From Betaproteobacteria bacterium (GTDB lineage Bacteria; Pseudomonadota; Gammaproteobacteria; Burkholderiales; JAHFQX01): a stretch of 34,009 nt of DNA. A program made the position numbers and the translations under genes. The stretch covers positions 1-34,009 of the forward strand of contig JAHFQX010000029.1 in assembly GCA_023259135.1 (NCBI GenBank), given 5' to 3'. The notes beneath the pieces are model-generated. The model was not told the DNA's origin. It saw only the letters and a list, made by a program, of their open reading frames with translations, and did not search any database. Within the stretch, counting starts at the first letter, position 1. Every line of letters starts with the position of its first letter. Below, one piece after another: positions 32,318-34,009 of the stretch.

Positions 32318-32905
32318 ATGCTCTTGAACGTCCCCAATCTCCTCACCGGCTTTCGGATTCTGCTGATTCCCTTGTTCGTCGGGGTGTTTTACTTGCCGGA
32401 ATCCTGGCTGTCGCTGCATAGCAAGAATGTGGCCGCCACCTTGATTTTTACCGCCGCGGCCGTCACCGATTGGCTGGACGGCTACTTGGCCCGCAGTCTC
32501 AATCAAACATCGGCATTCGGCGCTTTTTTGGATCCGGTGGCGGACAAGCTGATGGTGGTGGCGGCGTTGATCCTGCTGGTGGCCCTGGGGCGGGTCGACG
32601 CCCTCATCGCGGTGGTGATCATCGGCCGGGAAATCGCGATTTCCGCGCTGCGGGAATGGATGGCGGGAATCGGCGCCGGCAAAAACGTCGCCGTTTCCTT
32701 TCTCGGCAAACTCAAGACTCTTGCCCAGATGGTGGCCATCCTGATGTTGTTGTACTACGAGCAGCCCCATGCCTGGCTGAATTTTCCGCTGCTCGGAACG
32801 GTGCTGATTCTGGTGGCGGCGCTGCTGACGCTGTGGTCCATGGCCTATTACCTGAAGATGGCGTGGCCCCATGCGTTGCGCCAAGACAAGCCGCCGGTTC
32901 CTTGA
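32318..32905 (+). CDS. pgsA: CDP-diacylglycerol--glycerol-3-phosphate 3-phosphatidyltransferase
   Basis: Makes phosphatidylglycerol phosphate, the precursor of phosphatidylglycerol and cardiolipin, at the inner membrane. The CDP-alcohol phosphatidyltransferase motif is complete: Asp54-Gly55, Ala58-Arg59, Gly68, Asp72 and Asp76. The 195 residues form about five or six hydrophobic segments. It starts 8 bases after uvrC and shares its operon. The TGA stop (32903-32905) lies inside the -35 hexamer of the tRNA promoter. uvrC-pgsA-tRNA order equals that of E. coli. Confidence 0.96.
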   Translation: MLLNVPNLLTGFRILLIPLFVGVFYLPESWLSLHSKNVAATLIFTAAAVTDWLDGYLARSLNQTSAFGAFLDPVADKLMVVAALILLVALGRVDALIAVVIIGREIAISALREWMAGIGAGKNVAVSFLGKLKTLAQMVAILMLLYYEQPHAWLNFPLLGTVLILVAALLTLWSMAYYLKMAWPHALRQDKPPVP

Positions 32906-32929
32906 CAATCGCGGCTGCCGTTCTATAAT
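32902..32929 (+). promoter_or_regulatory. consensus promoter of the tRNA operon
   Basis: Perfect TTGACA (32902-32907) and TATAAT (32924-32929) with a 16-base spacer, followed by a GC-rich discriminator CGCACCCC. Such discriminators are typical of growth-rate and stringent-controlled stable RNA promoters. The -35 overlaps the pgsA stop codon. Confidence 0.85.
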
Positions 32930-32944
32930 CGCACCCCTGTTCAT

Positions 32945-33019
32945 GCGGGAATAGCTCAGTGGTAGAGCACAACCTTGCCAAGGTTGGGGTCGCGAGTTCG
33001 AGCCTCGTTTCCCGCTCCA
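32945..33019 (+). tRNA. glyW: tRNA-Gly (anticodon GCC)
   Basis: Full cloverleaf: acceptor GCGGGAA pairs with TTCCCGC, the D arm contains AGCTCAGTGGTAGAGC, the anticodon loop TTGCCAA gives GCC, and the T arm has GAGTTCGAGCCTC. Discriminator T and CCA are encoded. Position after pgsA corresponds to E. coli glyW. Confidence 0.97.
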
Positions 33020-33112
33020 AATATTCCTGGGAAAACGACGTTTCGGTAAAGACGAACGCCCCATGAGGGCGATGTCGAAGCGGAAGCGGTCCGTTTTCCC
33101 TTAAGTTTTTCC

Positions 33113-33186
33113 GGCGGGGTGGCAGAGTGGTTATGCAGCGGCCTGCAAAGCCGTGGACGCCGGTTCGATTCCGACCCCCGCCTCCA
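33113..33186 (+). tRNA. cysT: tRNA-Cys (anticodon GCA), attachment site of a decayed element
   Basis: Acceptor GGCGGGG pairs with CCCCGCC; the anticodon loop CTGCAAA gives GCA; the T arm has CCGGTTCGATTCCG; T and CCA are encoded. The 3' half (33142-33179) is repeated at 33672-33709, marking this gene as an integration site. The 93 bases between tRNA-Gly and tRNA-Cys contain distant complementary segments GGGAAAACG and CGTTTTCCC, possibly for processing. Confidence 0.97.
33142..33179 (+). repeat. attachment-site core copy 1 (inside tRNA-Cys)
   Basis: 38 bases from the anticodon arm to the acceptor stem of tRNA-Cys, matching 33672-33709 with two mismatches. Tyrosine recombinases commonly use tRNA 3' halves as attB, so this copy keeps the tRNA whole. 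Confidence 0.8.
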
Positions 33187-33231
33187 ATAAATTCAATAGC
33201 TTATGTAAATAAGTTGAAATAGAAGCAGTTT

Positions 33232-33279
33232 TTTGGGACTATTTGGGACAGTAGTTTGGTCTTGAGGTGTCCCAAATAG
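33232..33279. repeat. TTTGGGAC repeats and 12-bp inverted repeat (probable integrase arm sites)
   Basis: TTTGGGAC occurs at 33232-33239 and again at 33242-33249, spaced by 10 bases. CTATTTGGGACA (33239-33250) and TGTCCCAAATAG (33268-33279) are perfect 12-base inverted arms with a 17-base loop. A further TTTGGGACA is at 33623-33631, near the other attachment copy. No T run follows, so a terminator is unlikely. Confidence 0.6.
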
Positions 33280-33332
33280 CATTGATCGAGGAGAGAGGCC
33301 CGGCGCAATACCGGGTTCGTGTCCGGCGGCAG
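33276..33332 (+). pseudogene. tyrosine integrase N-terminal remnant
   Basis: In this frame the translation is IALIEERGPAQYRVRVRRQ, closely matching the usual start of phage/island tyrosine integrases (M-A-S-I-x-x-RG-x-x-QYRVxVRR). ATA stands where an ATG start would be, and similarity ends after RRQ; the frame stops at 33396. The gene would begin just inside the element next to the tRNA, the normal position for such integrases. The family call rests on recall of the motif, not a search. Confidence 0.55.
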
Positions 33333-33337
33333 CGTAG

Positions 33338-33592
33338 AAACCTTTCAACCTGCCGGAGAGAAATTTACACCAGCTTGACGGACGCTACCGACAACTGACT
33401 TGGAATCAGGTATATCGAGATCAAAGCCTGAAGTGGGGAAAGGTCGCGAGTATTAATCCTCCCAAGGGCATTGACGCGATTTACACGCTGGGCATTACGA
33501 AATCGCGGCGGGCCACGGCTTATCGCGATGGGAACTACATGCGGTTTCTGACGATCGCTTCGGATCACGACGCCGCGTACGGAAAAAAATAA
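33338..33592 (+). pseudogene. unrecognised coding remnant without a start codon
   Basis: Following an in-frame TAG (33335-33337) the frame is open for 84 codons to TAA at 33590-33592. The first Met is far downstream, about 18 codons before the stop. The peptide has protein-like composition, with segments such as QLDGRYRQLTWNQVYRD, SINPPKGIDAIYTLGITKS and YMRFLTIASDHDAAYGKK. It looks like the 3' part of a real small gene whose 5' end was lost when it was joined to the integrase fragment. I do not recognise the family; a toxin-antitoxin or phage accessory protein is only a guess. Confidence 0.5.
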
Positions 33593-33622
33593 TCGCGGCG
33601 AGCGTGTGGCCAAGCAGCGGCG

Positions 33623-33631
33623 TTTGGGACA
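33623..33631 (+). repeat. third TTTGGGACA motif near the downstream attachment copy
   Basis: Same sequence as at 33242-33250, located 40 bases before the partial tRNA-Cys copy. Its placement near the opposite end suggests a matching arm-type site. Confidence 0.5.
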
Positions 33632-33671
33632 GTTGGCGGAAAAAAGTAGTCACAAATTGCGAGTGTTTTTT

Positions 33672-33709
33672 CCTGCAAAGCCGTGGACGCCGGCTCAATT
33701 CCGACCCCC
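33672..33709 (+). repeat. attachment-site core copy 2 (partial tRNA-Cys 3' half)
   Basis: Matches 36 of 38 bases of 33142-33179; the mismatches fall in the T arm (GGTTCGA to GGCTCAA). After the core the sequence continues TCTATAA where tRNA-Cys has GCCTCCAATAA, so the end has decayed with a small deletion. It lacks the 5' half and cannot be a functional tRNA. Confidence 0.8.
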
Positions 33710-33726
33710 TCTATAAGATATTGTTG

Positions 33727-33815
33727 GCCCGGGTGGCGAAATGGGTAGACGCAAGGGACTTAAAATCCCTCGGGCCGCAAAGCCCGTACCGGTTCGACTC
33801 CGGTCCCGGGCACCA
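33727..33815 (+). tRNA. leuZ: tRNA-Leu (anticodon UAA)
   Basis: Class II tRNA of 89 bases: acceptor GCCCGGG pairs with CCCGGGC, the anticodon loop CTTAAAA gives UAA, a long variable arm follows (CGGGCCGCAAAGCCCG), the T arm is CCGGTTCGACTCCGG, and ACCA is encoded. It corresponds to E. coli leuZ. The remnant upstream separates it from the promoter at 32902-32929. Confidence 0.97.
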
Positions 33816-33821
33816 AATCGC

Positions 33822-33849
33822 CTTTTCCGCCCAGTCGGGAAAAGCTTTT
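33822..33849 (+). terminator. rho-independent terminator of the tRNA operon
   Basis: CTTTTCC (33822-33828) pairs with GGAAAAG (33838-33844), followed by TTTT (33846-33849), 6 bases after the CCA of tRNA-Leu. The A-rich/T-rich stem could also work on the opposite strand for the converging gene. Confidence 0.6.
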
Positions 33850-33883
33850 AAATCCGCATACAGCAGGTCGGCAGAACTTCGGT

Positions 33884-34009
33884 CTAACCGTCCGCTTGGG
33901 CCTTGCCCCGCTGCCAAAGCCTGTCGGGGCGTCCGGCTTGGCGGTTGAGCACCCGGCTCAGCACGAACAGCAGGTCCGACAGCCGGTTCAGATAGCGCCG
34001 GCAGAAAGG
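33884..34009 (-). CDS. PduO-type cob(I)alamin adenosyltransferase, C-terminal part (runs off right edge)
   Basis: On the minus strand the frame reads in from the right edge to TAG at 33884-33886, encoding the last 41 residues. The segment RRYLNRLSDLLFVLSRVLNR is the characteristic C-terminal helix of PduO-type ATP:cobalamin adenosyltransferases, which make adenosylcobalamin or finish corrinoid adenosylation; the tail QRGKAQADG is variable. The catalytic N-terminal part lies outside the window, so activity cannot be judged. It is too short to have a start here. Confidence 0.75.
   Translation of the reverse strand, partial: PFCRRYLNRLSDLLFVLSRVLNRQAGRPDRLWQRGKAQADG

Follow-up and report, generated by a model that had tools for sequence, protein, structure and literature searches.

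Integration of mobile elements at the 3′ ends of tRNA genes, with formation of a direct repeat, has been described in Burkholderia, and an island at tRNA-Cys is listed for Burkholderia pseudomallei (PMC2612704). Integrase genes whose promoter overlaps attL are likewise known, from KplE1-type prophages (PMC2951348). The locus analyzed here lies near one end of a betaproteobacterial contig stretch of 34,009 nucleotides, which we refer to as the window (the whole stretch of DNA that was analyzed), and it resembles the Burkholderia 'tRNA-SSR' islands (PMC2612704) in that a duplicated tRNA 3′ half sits at the far end while the tRNA itself is intact. With tyrosine-integrase islands and prophages in tRNA genes it also shares low GC, the presence of IS sequence and an integrase that immediately follows the tRNA; however, only ~0.5 kb is left here and the integrase is truncated, which renders it immobile. 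The succession of tRNA, arm-like motifs and int in one direction, with motifs that overlap the int start, is similar to the autoregulated layout of KplE1-type prophages (PMC2951348), although the element is a different one with an integrase fragment only, and the likeness here is one of sequence layout. We are highly confident that positions 33187-33709 are the collapsed remnant of an integrative element, either a genomic island or prophage-like, whose tyrosine integrase used the 3′ half of tRNA-Cys. An integrative-element scar had been proposed at this site in an earlier note made from the sequence alone, and the proposal is borne out by the 3′-half repeat, the integrase N-terminus with its arm-like repeats, the IS and toxin-like fragments together with low GC, and the corresponding sites of relatives.

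The tRNA cluster in the window consists of Gly, Cys and Leu(UAA) genes that are all intact by ARAGORN, with uvrC and pgsA upstream, so that the order uvrC-pgsA-Gly-Cys-Leu is found as the note had claimed. Among named records, the best matches to UvrC are betaproteobacterial and do not exceed 66% identity. The genome is the sole sampled member of its family, and the comparisons are with other families of the same order. The cluster and the repeat associated with it have the following parts:

32902..32929, + strand: putative promoter of the tRNA operon, consensus sigma70-type, TTGACA-16-TATAAT, 12/12 match
32945..33019, + strand: tRNA-Gly(GCC), ARAGORN
33113..33186, + strand: tRNA-Cys(GCA), ARAGORN; 3′ half from 33142 is the attL core
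33142..33179, + strand: proximal copy of the 38-bp direct repeat, attL core, inside tRNA-Cys
33672..33709, + strand: distal copy of the tRNA-Cys 3′ half, attR core, two mismatches, decayed acceptor end
33727..33815, + strand: tRNA-Leu(UAA), ARAGORN; apparently the sole copy in the genome by its anticodon-arm pattern

ARAGORN and direct-repeat alignment confirm what had first been noticed from the sequence, namely an intact tRNA-Cys and a 38-base copy of its 3′ half 530 bp downstream (start to start), with 36 of 38 positions identical between 33142-33179 and 33672-33709. No repeat with three or fewer mismatches arose in 100 dinucleotide shuffles of the window, and the 38-bp repeat has an E-value of 7e-10 against the whole genome. 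Similarity in the distal copy extends from the anticodon stem (CCTGCAAAG) to the T-stem/acceptor region; the 5′ half of tRNA-Cys is absent before it, and the local alignment ends exactly at 38 bp. The interval is thus flanked at both ends by the 3′ portion of the gene, with tRNA-Cys intact, as in elements that reside in tRNA genes. A complete distal copy would reach 33716 and leave 10 bp to tRNA-Leu. Directly preceding attR, at 33658-33671, is TGCGAGTGTTTTTT. The genome contains only three occurrences of its first 12 bases, of which the remaining pair is next to or near the IS256-family copies C29 and C28; this is either a coincidence or another remnant of DNA that flanked the IS.

The spacer between tRNA-Cys and tRNA-Leu was surveyed in 28 loci of relatives that have a same-strand downstream tRNA-Leu(UAA) within the fetched DNA. 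Of the 28 spacers, 20 measure 2-39 bp, five fall in the range 68-172 bp, including one that contains an additional tRNA-Gly, and the remaining three span 3.2-3.8 kb. The virtual spacer of 10 bp here matches the 2-39 bp of the 20 empty loci, which argues that 33187-33716 is extra DNA, and its extent is just what an element inserted at the 3′ end of tRNA-Cys would be expected to give. The claim that the cysT-leuZ interval is extra DNA, originally based on the E. coli order, therefore holds against betaproteobacterial relatives with their usual spacer of 2-39 bp, the empty site being seen in distant relatives only.

The same tRNA-Cys is occupied in other genomes. A tyrosine integrase starts 110-220 bp after it, in the same orientation, at four loci of the same order (L011, L012, L016 and L058); a frame also spans the stretch after tRNA-Cys in L021, a weaker integrase match is found there in L092, and L019 and L065 have an integrase after tRNA-Cys in the opposite orientation. 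These neighbors indicate that tRNA-Cys is a used integration site, and the present locus adds to the record of this gene as an integration hotspot in betaproteobacteria. As to an integrase-bearing version in relatives, to which the earlier note had looked, the site is indeed occupied by integrases of other types, but no intact copy of this element was present in the sampled genomes, plasmids, phages and IMG/VR contigs, a set that includes no close relative. When the interval DNA was searched against phages and plasmids, the matches were confined to tRNA-Cys genes and, on a single plasmid, a copy of the RelE-like gene described below; the arm-site pattern, searched in IMG/VR and 399 genomes, occurs in this window alone. 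The pattern of a tRNA-Cys 3′ end plus TTTGGGAC was matched by 66 IMG/VR contigs, none of which contains the tRNA-Cys end on inspection. In the genomes of three relatives (G005, G015 and G056) the tRNA-Cys 3′ half occurs a second time with no adjacent tRNA-Leu, and these copies could not be paired with the integrases as one element. At a separate locus of a relative (L282, G044:C101, 486-640), tRNA-Cys is followed first by a pair of degraded 5′ pieces resembling tRNA-Leu and next by an integrase gene, a layout that suggests repeated integration at the neighboring tRNA-Leu.

The interior of the interval had been described as nearly empty, and this part of the earlier description does not hold, since most of it is identifiable: pieces of an integrase gene, of an IS and of a cargo gene are present. 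GC content is 49.9% in the interval and 41.9% on its integrase side, compared with 61.4% for the window. The interior features are:

33232..33249, + strand: two direct TTTGGGAC repeats starting at 33232 and 33242, candidate integrase arm-type sites
33267..33332, + strand: 5′ end of a tyrosine integrase gene, ~22 codons, truncated, GTG start, (V/M)SQIALIEERGPAQYRVRVRRQ
33268..33279, − strand: third arm-like site, inverted TTTGGGAC (at 33269), overlapping the integrase start
33323..33389, + strand: right end of an IS256-family insertion sequence, fragment of 67 bp, 100% identical to the ends of copies C28 and C29 (G000)
33390..33592, + strand: RelE-fold toxin-like gene of which the 3′ two thirds remain (67-69 codons plus TAA), no 5′ part
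33623..33630, + strand: fourth copy of TTTGGGAC, close to attR and a candidate arm site for that end of the element, with TTTGGGACAGT in common with 33242

The integrase fragment starts ~80 bp after tRNA-Cys and reads away from it, and its last 10 bp are common to the IS fragment. Among 399 genomes, the best non-self match of the frame at 33267 is the N-terminus of a PF00589 integrase (MATIIERGPLQYQVKIRRRG; 57%, E 0.006), which has a direct repeat of its own, TTGGGTACATTTTTGGGTACA, just 5′ of its start; several related integrases carry comparable direct repeats just upstream of theirs. When an integrase N-terminus profile was run against the six-frame translation of the window, this stretch was the sole significant match (E 0.0005, next 3.3). 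As the profile consists of ten integrase N-termini and was seeded with the fragment's own best hit, the test is partly circular, and it gives strong but not fully independent support to the integrase identity. The gene at this end of the interval is present as an N-terminal fragment, and its catalytic domain is absent, as expected for a remnant. All four occurrences of TTTGGGAC in the 34-kb window fall inside the interval, near both of its ends, and 33268-33279 forms a perfect 12-bp inverted repeat with 33239-33250; the copies may well be arm-type sites of the integrase.

Two other copies of the IS are found elsewhere in the genome (C28 and C29), and the C29 copy encodes a PF00872 Transposase_mut domain (E 3.7e-38). 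The Mutator-type transposase, together with the identical 67-bp terminal sequence, places the fragment in the IS256 family; the window has only this end of the IS, and neither its left part nor the target duplication is present. The RelE-like fragment starts directly at the IS end. At the amino acid level it is 75% identical to a 108-aa protein from the same order (residues 40-108) and has 72% identity over 46 residues to a Burkholderia ubonensis plasmid homologue. Searches of Pfam, NCBIfam and PDB sequences returned nothing significant for this family, and the RelE fold was identified by structure prediction only, using a full-length homologue from a viral contig that is 65% identical to the fragment (pLDDT 85.7). 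The top PDB matches of the predicted fold are RelE, YoeB, YafQ and HigB (TM 0.5-0.67, best E 1.4e-3). The window holds the C-terminal part alone, and with its N-terminal third missing this copy is presumably dead. Several homologues have a small antitoxin-type gene directly upstream, a further likeness to the RelE/YoeB/HigB superfamily, and for this reason the cargo was probably a toxin-antitoxin pair. More broadly, this ~105-aa RelE-fold family with no significant Pfam match includes 33390-33592 of the window and loci L254-L271, L276 and L277. The small gene that precedes it at several loci is of the type TVKVxGxNGQISLGK...AGRQVLVEExEPGVWLVRTATVVPDNERWLH, and the two together are probably a toxin-antitoxin pair that has no curated family. 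One family member matches the C-terminus of the PADLOC model NsnC (E 1e-6).

Could the interval have arisen in another way? The second tRNA copy might be the relic of a tandem duplication of the tRNA-Cys gene in which the 5′ half has decayed, and in some genomes of the order this cluster does include additional tRNA copies, for example another tRNA-Gly. However, the match has a sharp boundary at the anticodon stem, and before it there is nothing of the 5′ half by which the earlier note would have recognized a duplication; nor would a duplication bring in fragments of an integrase, an IS and a toxin-like gene. We rejected this origin because the 5′ half is missing, and its probability is very slight indeed. 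Only marginally less improbable is that IS-mediated or illegitimate recombination alone produced the interval, with the tRNA fragment carried in along with other DNA, an origin that would fit both the IS256-family end inside the interval and the 14-mer beside the distal copy that is common to IS-flanking DNA elsewhere. Against it, the IS fragment is internal rather than at the borders, arm-like sites lie near both ends, and the duplication covers what would be expected of a tRNA attachment site and stands 10 bp before tRNA-Leu.

For the collapsed integrative element, the anatomy of the interval suggests a history in four steps. An integrase-bearing element would first have entered the 3′ half of tRNA-Cys, leaving the tRNA whole at attL and displacing the original 3′ half to attR before tRNA-Leu, with the integrase gene directly behind tRNA-Cys, in the same orientation and behind its own arm-type sites. 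In the usual polarity of such events, the 3′ half of the functional tRNA is element-derived and the distal copy is displaced host sequence; by analogy, the 3′ half of tRNA-Cys would here have come with the element and the copy at 33672-33709 would be the host's own. An IS256-family element would then have inserted in the RelE-like cargo gene near the attR end, as the gene sequence directly adjoins the IS end. In a third step, a deletion would have joined approximately codon 20 of the integrase to the last 67 bp of the IS, with the loss of nearly all of the element. The border of this deletion would fall in CCGGCGGCAG, a sequence compatible with the integrase frame as well as with the IS, and the shared CCGGCGGCAG is probably a site of microhomology. 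Slow decay of attR and of the gene fragments would have followed. The first two steps, integration and IS insertion, are strongly supported by the anatomy; the order of events and the deletion mechanism with its microhomology are what we infer from it. The remnant is unable to excise on its own. Events of this kind are well known, and the history is unusually easy to read here: arm sites, an integrase start, an IS end, a cargo fragment and both att sites are preserved within ~500 bp as an example of element collapse. The general understanding is left unchanged.

The interval separates what is apparently the only tRNA-Leu(UAA) gene from the operon promoter. The 12/12 site at 32902-32929 is the only sigma70-type site in 32880-33900 and lies ~0.8 kb from tRNA-Leu, in agreement with the earlier note, and no terminator-like site was found on the + strand between tRNA-Cys and tRNA-Leu. 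In pattern searches of the 2.58-Mb assembly, from which the copy number is taken, the tRNA-Leu(UAA) anticodon-arm pattern occurs once, and the gene must therefore be expressed, presumably by readthrough from the operon promoter or from a promoter missed by the simple scan. A −10-like TATAAG is present at 33712-33717, inside the decayed acceptor end and ten bases before tRNA-Leu. It is conceivable that the decaying attR was recruited as a new promoter of tRNA-Leu(UAA), acceptor-stem mutations having created TATAAG after the gene was cut off from its operon. We consider this unlikely and give it little weight, because the hexamer lacks a −35 partner and the window contains six copies of it against 2.6 expected. 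Relatives with more than 3 kb between tRNA-Cys and tRNA-Leu indicate that a separation of the two tRNAs is tolerated, and the present locus indicates the same for the only tRNA-Leu(UAA) and its operon promoter. Just behind tRNA-Leu, the 120 bp at the contig end (33890-34009) are 100% common to the starts of contigs C2 and C30, and this end is an assembly branch point.
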